From contig NZ_JAQGLJ010000117.1 of the NCBI RefSeq assembly GCF_028292945.1, forward strand, positions 1 to 34,451: 34,451 bases of DNA. Reading direction: 5' to 3'. This DNA is from Sphingomonas bacterium (GTDB taxonomy: Bacteria > Pseudomonadota > Alphaproteobacteria > Sphingomonadales > Sphingomonadaceae). The translations under genes were made by a program, and so were the position numbers. Positions 10,044-14,676 of this stretch are shown piece after piece. Positions within the stretch are counted from its first letter, which is position 1. The number at the start of each line of letters is the position of its first letter. The notes below the pieces were generated by a model. That model did not search any database. It saw nothing but the letters and a program-made list of their open reading frames with translations, and had not been told where the DNA came from.

Positions 10044-11501
10044 TCAATCCCCCGTCAGGATGCGGTCCACCAGCTGCTTCACCGTCGGCACGAAGCCATT
10101 TGAGTAGAACGGGTCGCGTTTGAAATTATATGCGGCGTGGCCTGCGAACATTAGGTTCTGTTCGATGTCGCCGCCATGGGCGATGTCCTGCAGCGTTTTC
10201 TGGATGCAGAACGAACGCGGATCGGCAAGCCGTCCGGTCGAATTGGTCTCCGTATCAGCCCAGCTTGAGAACAGGCATTGCGACAGACAGCCCATGCAAT
10301 CCGCCTGGTCCTTCCGGATCTCCGCTTTTTCGGTCGGCGATACGAACACCAGCGTGTTGTCTGGCGTCTTCAGCGCATCGGTGAAGCCGTGCCCGAACCA
10401 TTCGCGCGCGCTGAGCAGGTCGTTGCGCGTCACCCAGAAGTTCTTGCCCTTCACCCCCACGTCGAGCTGGAAGACGTGGTCGCCCGCCTCCTGCGTCGAG
10501 AACGCGATCTGCCGTTGCGACCGCGCTTCCAGCGCGCGCAGGAACGGGTTGCGCACCGCGGACGAGTAGAAGCCGGTTGGAGAGAAGCGGTGCAACAGCA
10601 CCTCGCCCGGCTCGATCTTGGTGAGATGATCCTTCCAGTCCTGCGGAATGGGGCTCTCGCGCGTCAGGAGCGGCCGGGTGCCATACTGGAAGGCGATCTG
10701 CCCCAGCTCGGGATTGTCGATCCAATTGTCCCAGTCGCGCAGATACCAGACGCCACCCGCCATCACGATGGGCGTGGCGTCGGAGATGCCGCCTGCTCGC
10801 ATGGTCTCGCGCAACGCCTTCACGCGAGGATAGGGATCCTGCGGCTCGAGCGGGTTCTCCGCGTTGGACAGCCCGTTGTGACCGCCCGCCAGCCAGGGGT
10901 CCTCATAGACCACCGCCGCCAGCCACTCGGACGCCTTGGAATAGGCACGCTTCCACAATGCCGAAAAGGCTCGCGCCGAACTGATGATCGGTAGATAATT
11001 GACCTGATACGACGCGGCGATCTCGCTCAGCTTGTACGGCATGCCCGCACCACAGGTGACGCCCGCGACCAGCCCGCGCGTCCGCTCCAGCACGCCGTGC
11101 AGCACGCGCGGCGCCCCACCCATCTCCCACAGCACGTTGATGTTGATGGCACCCCTGCCGCCGGCGATGTCCCACGCGCGCTGCACCTGCTGCACCGCAC
11201 CGTCGATCGCGTATTGGACCAGCTCTTCGTGCCGCTCGCGCCGGGTCAGCGCGCGATAGATCTGCGGGACGATCTTGCCCTCGGGATCATAGCTGTCGGC
11301 GTTGACCGCCGACACCGTTCCGATGCCGCCCGCCGCGGCCCACGCGCCTGCCGATGCATGGTTGGTCGCCGCGACGCCCTTGCCGCCCTCGACCAGCGGC
11401 CACACCTCGCGCCCGGCGTACATGATCGGCGTCAGGCCTTTGAACACGAGAGCAATCCCTTTCGGAGCAGATACGGGCTTTATAGCCAAAGGTTGCGGCA
11501 A
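10044..11501 (-). CDS. Nitronate-monooxygenase-like FMN protein with four-cysteine C-terminal motif
   Basis: 485 residues, much longer than ordinary nitronate monooxygenases (~320-350). The N-terminal two thirds is an NMO-type TIM barrel: PLVEGGKGVAATNHASAGAWAAAGGIGTV, AGGHNG at about 206-210, IVMAGGVW, and a phosphate-binding FQYGTRPLLTRESP near 271-284. The VSFHFG-type segment that carries the catalytic His in nitronate monooxygenases is here GVTCGAGMP, with Cys150 and no His. The extension holds Cys402, Cys405, Cys409 and Cys432 (CxxCxxxC then C), which resembles an iron-sulfur ligand set. Oxidation of nitronates is therefore doubtful; it may be an FMN/Fe-S reductase. The start is probably TTG at 11501 and is uncertain. 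It lies 17 bases after the GT4 gene. Confidence 0.75.
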   Translation of the reverse strand: MPQPLAIKPVSAPKGIALVFKGLTPIMYAGREVWPLVEGGKGVAATNHASAGAWAAAGGIGTVSAVNADSYDPEGKIVPQIYRALTRRERHEELVQYAIDGAVQQVQRAWDIAGGRGAININVLWEMGGAPRVLHGVLERTRGLVAGVTCGAGMPYKLSEIAASYQVNYLPIISSARAFSALWKRAYSKASEWLAAVVYEDPWLAGGHNGLSNAENPLEPQDPYPRVKALRETMRAGGISDATPIVMAGGVWYLRDWDNWIDNPELGQIAFQYGTRPLLTRESPIPQDWKDHLTKIEPGEVLLHRFSPTGFYSSAVRNPFLRALEARSQRQIAFSTQEAGDHVFQLDVGVKGKNFWVTRNDLLSAREWFGHGFTDALKTPDNTLVFVSPTEKAEIRKDQADCMGCLSQCLFSSWADTETNSTGRLADPRSFCIQKTLQDIAHGGDIEQNLMFAGHAAYNFKRDPFYSNGFVPTVKQLVDRILTGD

Positions 11502-11518
11502 CGCGATACTAACCTGCC

Positions 11519-12655
11519 TCAGCCGCTGAGCGCACCCGGCCGCCCAAGCGCGGCCTCGTAGAGATCGCGATAGCGCGCGACCATCAGCCCCTCATCATAC
11601 TCGGCCTGCGCGCGCCGCTGATTGGCGGCGCCAACGCTGCGGCGCAGCGCCGGATCGCTGACCAGCGCGTGCAGTGCGTCCCGAAGGAACACCTCGTTGG
11701 GTGTGGGGATGATGTAGGGCCGGTTCTCGGCCGCCACCATCGCGTACACGTCGCCGACCGCAGGTGCGGCGATCGGCAGCCCCGCCGCCATTGCTTCCAC
11801 GACCGAGATTGGGAATTGCTCGGACAGAGAGGACAGCGCCAGCACGTCGAACAGTCCGACGAACCGATGCGGGGAGGACAGAAATCCCGGCAGTACCAAC
11901 CTGTCGCTCAGTCCCATTGCCTCGGCTGCGCCTTCGATCGCTCCACGTTCGGGGCCTTCGCCGACGATCACCAGCCGCACCTTGCCCGCCAGCCCACCAA
12001 CCGCGCGCACCAGCATCGGCAGGTCCTTGACCGCGCGCAGGCCGGCGAGCGCGCCGATCACCACCTCGCCGGAATTGCGGCTCAGCCCCGGAATCGCGCC
12101 CGCGACCGGCGCTGCATAGGCTGCGACCGGGATGCCATTTACAATCCGGTGGACGCGCCCGCGCGGCTGCTTCCAGATATCGAGCGCGATCCGCTCCAGC
12201 GTCTGCGACGGCACCACCAGCGCGTGCGCGGCGGCCAGCGCGATGCGGCGGTACACATTGCGCTGGCGCTTCAGCCCACCCGCCTCGTCGGCATTGAACC
12301 CGTCCTCGTGATGCACGACCGGCGGTGCGTCCTTTGCAAAGGCCCGCCGCGCCATCACTCCGTCGATCGCGCCCCAATTGTACGTCAGCACCAGGTCGAA
12401 GCGCCGCATGAACCGCGCGATCGCCTCGTATCGCGCGACCGACGGCCTGCCCGTCAGCGGCGGGGGGTCCTGCGCGACCTCGTACGCCACCCCCGCCGGG
12501 ATCGCGTCGCGCGCACCAAGCGCGTCGGGGACGCCGGAGACGATCGTGTGCCGCGCCCGATCGCCCCAGGCGCCCATCAGCCGAACGCTCCGCGCCTCCT
12601 TGCCGCCCAGATCGAACGAGGAGTGCAGATGCAGGATGCGGACGGGCGCGGGCAT
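11519..12655 (-). CDS. Glycosyltransferase family 4 (GT-B fold)
   Basis: 378 residues. The N-terminal domain begins VRILHLHSSFDLGGKEARSVRL, with the GG(K/A)E loop seen in GT4 enzymes. The linker carries IVNGIPVAAY. The C-terminal domain has GEVVIGALAGLRAVKDLPMLV (the usual GRL..EKG..LL position), VIVGEGPERG, and the donor-binding Glu-x7-Glu motif in SLSEQFPISVVEAMAAGLPI. It would transfer a sugar from a nucleotide donor to a lipid or glycan acceptor in the cytosol or at the inner membrane; donor and acceptor cannot be told. It lies 48 bases after the GH130 gene on the same strand, which suggests that both act on the same glycan. Confidence 0.85.
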   Translation of the reverse strand: MPAPVRILHLHSSFDLGGKEARSVRLMGAWGDRARHTIVSGVPDALGARDAIPAGVAYEVAQDPPPLTGRPSVARYEAIARFMRRFDLVLTYNWGAIDGVMARRAFAKDAPPVVHHEDGFNADEAGGLKRQRNVYRRIALAAAHALVVPSQTLERIALDIWKQPRGRVHRIVNGIPVAAYAAPVAGAIPGLSRNSGEVVIGALAGLRAVKDLPMLVRAVGGLAGKVRLVIVGEGPERGAIEGAAEAMGLSDRLVLPGFLSSPHRFVGLFDVLALSSLSEQFPISVVEAMAAGLPIAAPAVGDVYAMVAAENRPYIIPTPNEVFLRDALHALVSDPALRRSVGAANQRRAQAEYDEGLMVARYRDLYEAALGRPGALSG

Positions 12656-12703: not shown

Positions 12704-13822
12704 TCAGCCGATCGAGTCCTTCGGCACATGCGTGATCCGGCACGCCAGGTCCGCTTCGCCGCTCGCCACGATCCAATGATCGCCGCCGTCGACCAGCCCG
12801 GTCGTGAAGACCACGTCGGACACGTACATCCGATCGGCCAGCGGATCGGTCAGCGACGGCGCGGGCTCAAGCAGCGGTGTGTGCCCGGTCGCCAGCGTCA
12901 CGCTCGGATCGTCCCGGTCGAGCAGCGTCCAATAGGTGCGGTAGATCCCCACCGTGCCTGACGGCTCCACCCCATGCCACAACGACAGCCAGCCATCGGG
13001 CGTCAGCACGGGCGGGGCGCCGCCGCCCATGCGGGCGGTCGAGACCGTCCCCGCGTGCGGCCTGATGCCGGGCCGATCGTGCGGCTTCCAGTGCAGCGCA
13101 TCGGGGGAGCGCGCGAGGTTGATCGACGGCCCGGCGCGCCATTGGCTGCCCGGCGGATAGGCGAAATAGCCGTCGCCCAGCGGTCGGGTCTGCGCCCAAT
13201 ATTCCCCGCCGATCAGGCCGGGAAAGATCAGCATGTCCTTGTTCTGGTGATCGAGCACGATGCCTTCGAGCCGCCAGTCAAGCGCGTCGTGGCTGGTGTA
13301 CAGCGTCGTGCACTGCCGCTCCGGGCTGACCGAACAGGTCGTCATAAGCCAGCGCTCGCCCACCTTGCTGATCCGCGCGTCCTCGATCCCATAGCATTGA
13401 TACGATTCGGCCGGCGCGATGGCGCGGTCGTAATGCACCGCCGTCACATGCCGGCCGTCGGGCGACAGCTCGACCGGCAGCAGCCAGGACAGGCTGGTCA
13501 GCGCCGCCACCTTCCACCCGCCGCCCGCCATCACCACCGCGCGCGGATCGGCGGTATCGACCAGCTGGAGCGGCCAGGCGTCGAGGTGGCAGGCGCCATC
13601 CGCCCAGCGCATCGAATGGACATGCCCATCCCAGCGCGGCGTGCGCAGCGCCTCCGCCACCCGCACCATCATCAGCAGGTTGCCGCTCGGCAGTCGCGTC
13701 AGCCCGGGGTTGAACGCGCCCAGCACATAGGTCTCGGCATCCACCTTCCCCGCCAGCGGGGAGCGCGCGAGGTCAACATCGTGAGGCGTGAAGACCAGCG
13801 CGTCGAAGGGGAATCCCGTCAC
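12704..13822 (-). CDS. GH130 family glycoside phosphorylase/hydrolase-like protein
   Basis: 372 residues, a five-bladed beta-propeller family by motif. Diagnostic elements are VLGAFNPGLTRL near 33-43, GIEDARISKVGERWLMT at about 145-161 (the GxEDPR motif thought to carry the catalytic acid, with Ala in place of Pro), QNKDMLIFPGLIGGEYW near 193-209 (the HKDAxLFPE position), and LWHGVEPSGTVGIYR. GH130 enzymes mostly phosphorolyse beta-mannosides such as beta-1,4- or beta-1,2-mannobiose, and some hydrolyse them. There is no signal peptide, so it is cytosolic. The GTG start at 13822 overlaps the stop of the upstream hydrolase gene as GTGA. A longer reading of the frame to 14218 lies inside that gene and is rejected. 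Substrate is not decided. Confidence 0.83.
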   Translation of the reverse strand: MTGFPFDALVFTPHDVDLARSPLAGKVDAETYVLGAFNPGLTRLPSGNLLMMVRVAEALRTPRWDGHVHSMRWADGACHLDAWPLQLVDTADPRAVVMAGGGWKVAALTSLSWLLPVELSPDGRHVTAVHYDRAIAPAESYQCYGIEDARISKVGERWLMTTCSVSPERQCTTLYTSHDALDWRLEGIVLDHQNKDMLIFPGLIGGEYWAQTRPLGDGYFAYPPGSQWRAGPSINLARSPDALHWKPHDRPGIRPHAGTVSTARMGGGAPPVLTPDGWLSLWHGVEPSGTVGIYRTYWTLLDRDDPSVTLATGHTPLLEPAPSLTDPLADRMYVSDVVFTTGLVDGGDHWIVASGEADLACRITHVPKDSIG

Positions 13823-14676
13823 GACACCCGCGCCAGCAGCCGGTCGATACCCGCGACCGCCTCGGCCTCGTCCAGCGTCGGCGCGTGCCCGACACGCGGC
13901 ACCGTCACCAGCTCTCCCTGCGGCAGCGCCTGCATCATCCGCGCCGCTGTCGTCTCCGACAGCACGTCGGACAGCGCCCCGCGCACTAGCAGCACCGGGG
14001 TGTCGGCCAGCGCCGTCAACGCCGGCCACAGATCGGCCGGCGCCTCTCCCCCCGTCTGCCGGAACGGCTCGGCGATGCGGTGGTCGTAATCGAGCTTGAT
14101 CTTGCCCTTGGCGGTCAGCCGATACAGCCGCTTGGCCATGGCGAGCCAGTCCGGCAGCGTCCAATCGGGGTAAACGTCGCTGTTTGCTTCGGCCAACGCG
14201 CGCGCGGCGTGCAGCCATGTCGGGTGGCTCGACGCCTTGCCGACATAGCCGCGGATGCGCTGCAGCCCCGCCGCCTCGATCTCCGGCCCGATGTCGTTGA
14301 GCACCGCGCCCGCCTGCCGCCCCGGCTCCGCTTGCGCCATCATCATCGCCACGATCCCGCCCAACGACGTGCCCACCGCCACGAACCGCCCCACCTCAAG
14401 CGCATCAAGCATCGCGACCACATCGGCGGCATAGGTGGCGGGCGCATAGCTTGCCCAGTCCTCCGCACGCCCGCTGCCGCCCCGACCGCGCAGGTCGATC
14501 GCCACCACCCGCCGGTCGCCCGCGACCCGCTCGGCCAGAGCTTCGAAGTCGCGGCAATTCCGCGTCAGTCCGGGCAGGCACACCACCGGCAGCCCACCTT
14601 CGTCACCGGGATACTCACGCGCGTGCAGCAACGTTCCGTCGGCGGCCGTGACGAACCGGTCCTCAAACACGCCCAT
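13819..14676 (-). CDS. Alpha/beta-fold hydrolase
   Basis: 285 residues. The oxyanion/N-terminal motif is VVCLPGLTRNCRDFEALAERV. The nucleophile Ser sits in GTSLGGIVAMM. The acid is probably Asp in VRGALSDVLSE, and the catalytic His is in PRVGHAPTLDE. IDLRGRGGSGRAEDWASY is the strand-4 loop. There is no signal peptide or lid that would point to a lipase; it resembles general esterases and lactonases of the alpha/beta hydrolase superfamily. The ATG at 14676 is preceded by a purine-rich GGGGGAG. The gene is divergent from selO with 37 bases between starts, so both promoters must overlap. It opens the minus-strand block that continues through GH130, GT4, the NMO-like gene and parD. Confidence 0.87.
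   Translation of the reverse strand: MGVFEDRFVTAADGTLLHAREYPGDEGGLPVVCLPGLTRNCRDFEALAERVAGDRRVVAIDLRGRGGSGRAEDWASYAPATYAADVVAMLDALEVGRFVAVGTSLGGIVAMMMAQAEPGRQAGAVLNDIGPEIEAAGLQRIRGYVGKASSHPTWLHAARALAEANSDVYPDWTLPDWLAMAKRLYRLTAKGKIKLDYDHRIAEPFRQTGGEAPADLWPALTALADTPVLLVRGALSDVLSETTAARMMQALPQGELVTVPRVGHAPTLDEAEAVAGIDRLLARVS

Follow-up and report, generated by a model that had tools for sequence, protein, structure and literature searches.

The window analysed here, a 34,451-nucleotide stretch of a Sphingomonas contig (NZ_JAQGLJ010000117.1, positions 1 to 34,451), encodes a flavoprotein that carries an iron-sulfur-like set of cysteines, and this combination raises the question of which reaction the protein performs and which pathway it serves. 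As we argue below, the protein is likely to be a long FabX-type acyl-ACP dehydrogenase/isomerase that replaces FabA and FabB in unsaturated fatty acid synthesis. The initial annotation had placed the gene in an open frame at 10044-11501; this is indeed a single frame, on the minus strand (the plus-strand frame at these positions is interrupted by stops), and its start is probably the GTG at 11447-11445, residue 19 of the ORF counted from TTG 11501, and not that TTG itself, since most same-genus relatives align only from ORF residues 14-19. Residue numbers in this text count from TTG 11501, and numbers from the GTG start are lower by 18. The features to which we refer are the following:

10044..11447, minus strand: FabX-like coding sequence, 467 residues from the probable GTG start (11447-11445); the open frame extends to TTG 11501.
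11037..11060, minus strand: VTCGAGMP with Cys150 (kept in 43 of 44 aligned relatives), opposite FabX IITGAGLP and not the histidine segment.
10872..10889, minus strand: AGGHNG with His208, equivalent to FabX His182; histidine in 44 of 44.
10299..10511 (approximate limits), minus strand: insert, about 70 residues long, that separates the TIM barrel from the first cysteine and is absent from FabX, by profile alignment and model.
10275..10298, minus strand: Cys402, Cys405 and Cys409, the first three presumed [4Fe-4S] ligands (FabX C300, C304 and C308); 44 of 44, by profile alignment.
10206..10208, minus strand: Cys432 in DPRSFC, the fourth presumed ligand (FabX C320); 44 of 44, with DPRSFCIQ opposite FabX YCIA / TFCIA.

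The whole source genome (2.79 Mb) holds one match to the window protein. Upstream of the gene, and likewise on the minus strand, lie a group 1 glycosyltransferase (11519-12655) and a GH130 phosphorylase-like protein (12704-14218); these window neighbours gave no functional evidence. Among related loci, the Sphingomonas parapaucimobilis copy (NZ_CP155753.1, 44520-45920) sits on a 385 kb replicon that its record classes as a plasmid, an odd place for a widely conserved gene, and two Sphingomonas-like loci with 88-89% protein identity come from records whose names look wrong (L017, Microvirga sp. SRT01; L044, Arthrobacter sp. TPD3018).

Automatic annotation had been expected to call the protein a nitronate monooxygenase, and the RefSeq plasmid record does give that name to the S. 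parapaucimobilis copy. The same label follows from our Pfam search, in which NMO (PF03060) was the single match at E up to 1, with 32.6 bits where the cut-off is 28. Membership of this family says little by itself about nitronate detoxification, given that, according to PMC8626469, FabK and FabX also fall within the NMO flavoprotein family. A second comparison in the initial annotation, with 2,4-dienoyl-CoA reductase, finds no footing in these searches: no match to Oxidored_FMN, which we take to be the family name of that reductase, appeared at E up to 1, and the closest relative of known structure is Helicobacter pylori FabX (HP0773; PDB 7e1q, 9lt5). In a phmmer search against PDB sequences FabX was closest to the window protein at E about 7e-18; with a family profile it reached E 2e-29, FabK following as the next family at E 1e-4, and a profile-profile comparison of 44 relatives with the FabX-proper family (12 sequences drawn from other genomes, a family that matches solved FabX at E 8e-77) gave E 9.4e-30 and a probability of 99.8. 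Structural comparison agreed with this ranking. Using an AlphaFold2 model of the window protein with a mean pLDDT of 90.2, Foldseek placed FabX first, as did VIA (Z 37.5, 354 aligned residues, rmsd 3.2 A), in which FabK entries scored about 29-30. Model residues 1-466 match FabX chain residues 1-363 over the whole length, cluster subdomain included, at 20-26% identity in the structure alignments.

We then compared the residues on which FabX chemistry depends. The motifs AGGHNG and GTRPLLTRESP, which had been read as FMN motifs, are both present in the translated ORF. In FabX, His182 in SGGHQG is the catalytic histidine, and the roles of the other residues, including the basic ACP-docking K152, R160 and R164, are described in the same source (PMC8626469). 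Both the phmmer and the profile alignments set AGGHNG on SGGHQG, so that the supposed absence of a catalytic histidine has to be withdrawn: His208 corresponds to His182 and is invariant in all 44 aligned relatives. The segment VTCGAGMP, which is present as described, had been taken for the place that normally supplies this histidine; it aligns with FabX IITGAGLP, which contributes none. The histidine partner S273 of FabX corresponds to ORF Ser307 (44 of 44), and the FMN contacts N99, E175, Q240, F339 and G341 are occupied by identical residues in 44 of 44 relatives. At the docking surface, R160 is Arg and K152 is replaced by Arg throughout (44/44 each), and the R164 position is basic in 40 of 44 (Lys 32, Arg 8, Asn 3, Ser 1). 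K159 has a basic counterpart, Lys or Arg, in 35 of 44; I156 and T340, mostly Ala here (38/44 and 39/44), are not conserved in kind. FabX numbers were set on the alignments by hand, counting from named residues, and the 44 sequences were hand-picked, the most distant sharing 48% identity with the window protein, with near-duplicates left out. Also outside this alignment are 20 loci for which the script found no start motif (L108, L112, L117, L124, L129, L140, L153, L156, L159, L160, L169-L173, L175-L177, L188 and L190).

The cysteine set tells a similar story. The CxxCxxxC motif and the fourth cysteine 23 residues on are present in the ORF as the initial annotation described them, and their lack of conservation in close homologues had been named beforehand as a possible refutation; Cys402, Cys405, Cys409 and Cys432 are invariant in 44 of 44 relatives, and Cys150, for which the same check had been proposed, is nearly so. 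In the profile-profile alignment with the FabX-proper family, CLSxC and the last FCI fall in register and the four cysteines align, although the spacing differs, being Cx2Cx3Cx22C in the window protein against Cx3Cx3Cx11C in FabX, with a longer loop preceding the fourth cysteine. The pattern occurs together with GGHxG in 95 of 95 family rows listed from L091 onward, the rows below L091 being close Sphingomonas relatives; among the 95 are the window's own locus, two genomes that each appear twice and one row with GGHIG in place of GGHNG. In this listing all 20 loci set aside for their start motif carry both. Three further NMO-family loci of the same genome read GGHIG, GGHTG and GGHAG, and all of them lack the cysteine pattern. 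Judged from sequence, the window protein is very probably an FMN plus [4Fe-4S] enzyme. The proposal that it might be a new kind of FMN/Fe-S enzyme survives in part: the family forms a new branch, but the enzyme type, that of FabX, is known and so not wholly new. Among 20 shorter FabX-like relatives, eight lack the FabX cysteine pattern (L192, L193, L194, L196, L200, L205, L206 and L207), which implies that part of the superfamily may work without a [4Fe-4S] cluster.

Overall, the window protein shares with H. pylori FabX the FMN-bearing TIM barrel, the catalytic histidine and its serine partner, the FMN contacts, the four cysteines for a [4Fe-4S] cluster, basic ACP-docking residues and a host without FabA. 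It differs in length (467 against 363 residues), in the insert before the first cysteine, in its occurrence, which covers Alphaproteobacteria and a few families elsewhere in the phylum, and in its frequent linkage to pnp and a Fur-family gene. In a model of 81 residues (pLDDT 85.2), the insert forms a small alpha/beta subdomain, and in sequence it adjoins the cluster ligands. Against PDB folds, Foldseek found nothing at E <= 0.001 for this subdomain and VIA gave a best Z of 2.3; the comparison therefore offers no clue to an electron acceptor, nor should the fold be called new for want of a match.

The next closest fold, FabK (enoyl-ACP reductase II), suggests another role, namely that of a FabK-type enoyl-ACP reductase or another general enzyme of fatty acid synthesis that is not specific to unsaturated chains. 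FabK likewise combines a TIM barrel with FMN and a catalytic histidine, and its equivalog TIGR03151 is the best NCBIfam family nearby. The protein scores 25.1 bits against the TIGR03151 cut-off of 453.1, however, and is not a member, and the sequence match to FabK is weak (E 1e-4 to 3e-3); according to PMC8626469, FabK also has no [4Fe-4S] subdomain and possesses an NAD(P)H-binding part. Genome content bears on this reading as well. FabI was found in all 48 FabX-like carriers tested out of the 163 (E <= 2.6e-81), as well as in each of the seven FabA genomes examined, and with FabI in all 55 genomes tested we reject a role as sole enoyl reductase. As the distribution of the gene moreover mirrors that of FabA and FabB, as set out below, we consider a FabK-type function very unlikely.

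Many alphaproteobacteria, Sphingomonas included, have cis-vaccenic acid as a main fatty acid. We examined the distribution of the gene in an even draw of 289 alphaproteobacterial genomes and detected it in 163 (best E 0 to 1.7e-70), including genomes of 0.6-0.9 Mb, with roughly 50-70% identity across the class among the matches listed. FabA was detected in 103 genomes, 97 of them above the TIGR01749 cut-off and six at E 2e-63 to 6e-71 that we counted as FabA carriers; in the remaining genomes the FabA profile gave best E values of at least about 1e-10, presumably FabZ, the exception being a 47-position piece in G075 at E 2e-15. Not one of the 289 genomes contains both the FabX-like gene and FabA, against 58 expected if the two were independent (Fisher p 3e-56, a value that ignores relatedness), and 163 of the 186 genomes without FabA have the FabX-like gene. 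FabB follows FabA: calling it at more than 390 bits (the next score, 354 bits, belongs to a genome with neither gene), we found it in 102 of the 103 FabA genomes and in none of the 163 carriers. The sole FabA genome without a FabB-level synthase is G222 (L244), in which fabI lies 131 bases from fabA. Beyond the class, the gene extends to a few other families of the phylum, with matches of about 60% identity in f178, f197 and f218; FabA above cut-off was found in none of 20 such non-alphaproteobacterial carriers and in none of 20 genomes with shorter FabX relatives.

A true nitronate monooxygenase would leave much of this unexplained: the exclusion of FabA and FabB, the retention of the gene in small genomes, the level of identity among the matches listed and the conservation of the cysteines. 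We regard that function as hardly credible, and the name as very probably a misnomer.

Not every genome is accounted for by these two systems. The 23 of 289 with neither FabA nor the FabX-like gene (G063, G071, G075, G097, G103, G107, G111, G122, G127, G129, G131, G142, G169, G195, G219, G227, G230, G237, G240, G248, G260, G290 and G314) indicate that a further route or host supply exists; 21 of them are without a PF00487 desaturase, 20 have a ketoacyl-ACP synthase match, and a search of all 23 with the family profile returned one weak match alone (G103, E 1.1e-4). Desaturases of the FA_desaturase family (PF00487) occur above cut-off in 9 of 11 FabA genomes and 2 of the 23 with neither gene; among 14 carriers of the FabX-like gene tested, five have a match above cut-off, one has a match below it and eight have none, and in these eight none of the families searched for offers a candidate besides the FabX-like gene. 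In the window's own genome we found two FA_desaturase matches, one FabA/FabZ-type match at FabZ level and ketoacyl-ACP synthase matches below FabB level; FabZ-, FabF- and FabI-type genes are present.

The position of the gene on the chromosome provides a second line of evidence. We compared 40 carrier stretches (20 divergent matches and 20 hand-picked) with 40 hand-picked FabA stretches, identifying neighbours by Pfam; both sets are non-random and several stretches are cut off at contig ends. Around the FabX-like gene, pnp lies within 3 kb in 25 stretches; closer in, at no more than 1 kb, 14 stretches have a Fur-family gene and nine a rubrerythrin, and 14 stretches have none of these three. 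Of the FabA stretches, 27 have a Fur-family gene, 20 a rubrerythrin and 33 fabI at no more than 3 kb; fabB is present in 37 and pnp, anywhere in the stretch, in 19, and eight of 40 have none of the three anchors. We take the Fur-family gene near the slot to be irr, and the gene order to be that in rhizobia. Three families contain both states. In f131, one genome (G163) reads truB-rpsO-pnp-GDPD-[FabX-like gene]-Fur-rubrerythrin and another (G267) is collinear with it, carrying fabI-fabA-fabB in place of the FabX-like gene. In family f132, G164 has pnp-[FabX-like gene]-Fur-rubrerythrin and G268 has pnp-fabA near a contig end. In family f100, G132 has pnp-[FabX-like gene] with no Fur gene found and G242 has fabI-fabB-fabA-Fur-rubrerythrin without pnp, so this pair has no anchor in common. 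In four of four Sphingomonas and Stakelama stretches (L012, L030, L075 and L087) the gene lies away from the pnp cluster, so the window's own lineage contributes nothing to the slot argument. On balance, the FabX-like gene is best read as standing in for FabA and FabB, two families unrelated to it (a dehydratase/isomerase and ketoacyl-ACP synthase I) that would act at the same pathway step and in many genomes occupy the same chromosomal slot.

To what extent could shared ancestry produce this exclusion? By family code, the genomes fall into 158 families, of which 86 contain carriers only, 51 FabA only, 13 only genomes with neither gene, five a mixture that includes such genomes, and three both states in different genomes; these three mixed families speak against a single old split. 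A quick tree built on PNPase from 25 carriers and 19 FabA genomes, the 44 of the 80 stretches with a PNPase of at least 450 aligned residues, required 11 state changes against a shuffled mean of 14.4-14.6 (21 and 17 of 500 shuffles were as low), while its well-supported branches force just two changes and 24 of the 41 inner branches stay open. Clustering of the labels is thus weak, on a poorly resolved tree, which indicates that the exclusion is partly phylogenetic.

By analogy with H. pylori FabX, the proposed cycle would begin with an acyl-ACP of about C10 docking via the basic helix. His208 would take the alpha proton and a hydride would pass to FMN, giving trans-2-enoyl-ACP, which would isomerise to the cis-3 form in the tunnel; the product, cis-3-decenoyl-ACP, would be the entry to unsaturated fatty acids, and the cis chain would then be extended by FabF. 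FMN would be reoxidised by O2 or another acceptor, the cluster helping. We infer the same product for the window protein from three facts taken together, namely that the main FabX mechanism residues are kept, that carriers are without FabA and FabB, and that FabZ-, FabF- and FabI-type genes are present in the window genome; the FMN and cluster content, substrate, reaction and essentiality of the protein are likewise predicted.

The electrons may go to O2 or to a different acceptor; a Neisseria relative is described as acting anaerobically, with an acceptor that is not known (PMC11300592). A redox-neutral or O2-independent isomerase would fit the same distribution and slot evidence: FabZ would supply trans-2-decenoyl-ACP, and the enzyme would turn this into the cis-3 isomer either with no net oxidation or by using a protein as electron acceptor. 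In favour of such an isomerase one could cite the insert beside the cluster, some 70 residues that FabX does not have. The closest solved relative, FabX, is nonetheless an O2-dependent dehydrogenase (PMC8626469), and the FabX histidine, Ser273 and the FMN and cluster residues are kept, so that we judge such an isomerase improbable. A more far-reaching view, in which the protein is the unrecognised main unsaturated fatty acid route in more than half of the sampled alphaproteobacteria, has been swapped repeatedly in situ with fabI-fabA-fabB, and works independently of O2, either as a redox-neutral isomerase or by sending electrons by way of cluster and insert to an acceptor of its own, seems to us doubtful as a whole.

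Setting these variants aside, the FabX-type dehydrogenase/isomerase reading can be placed beside published work. NGO1024 of Neisseria gonorrhoeae, a FabX homologue, is essential for anaerobic unsaturated fatty acid synthesis according to PMC11300592. A gonococcal record that we took as NGO1024 matches the window protein at 27% identity over 64% of the query. NGO1024 is presumably UfaA, and the title of the original paper reportedly speaks of anaerobes lacking FabA. PMC8626469 lists FabX homologues above 50% identity alone, a threshold below which the window family falls with its 20-26%. Among the FabX papers listed (21 of 22, in a mainly open-access literature), none deals with this family as judged by title and opening of the abstract, and no paper there joined FabX to Alphaproteobacteria. 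In main-text word searches of four transposon or CRISPRi studies on alphaproteobacteria, 'nitronate', 'nitropropane' and 'fabA' were not found; two studies gave no match, a third mentioned 'fatty acid' once, in the title of a cited work, and the fourth had passages on a desaturase, acyl-CoA dehydrogenases and an ACP (12 of 14 places). A word search of PMC12136173, on mitochondrial membranes, found no FabA or FabX.

Together, these data suggest that a gene annotated as nitronate monooxygenase encodes a lipid enzyme, one that we would expect to be essential, probably, in its carriers. The FabX-like gene is a concrete, testable candidate for 163 of the 186 sampled genomes that are without FabA. 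It also offers an unusually clear example of two unrelated solutions being exchanged at a single chromosomal site, which raises the question of how the choice between FabA/FabB and an iron-sulfur flavoenzyme is made. If this reading is confirmed, both the metabolic models built for a large bacterial class and the annotation of its genes would have to be corrected.
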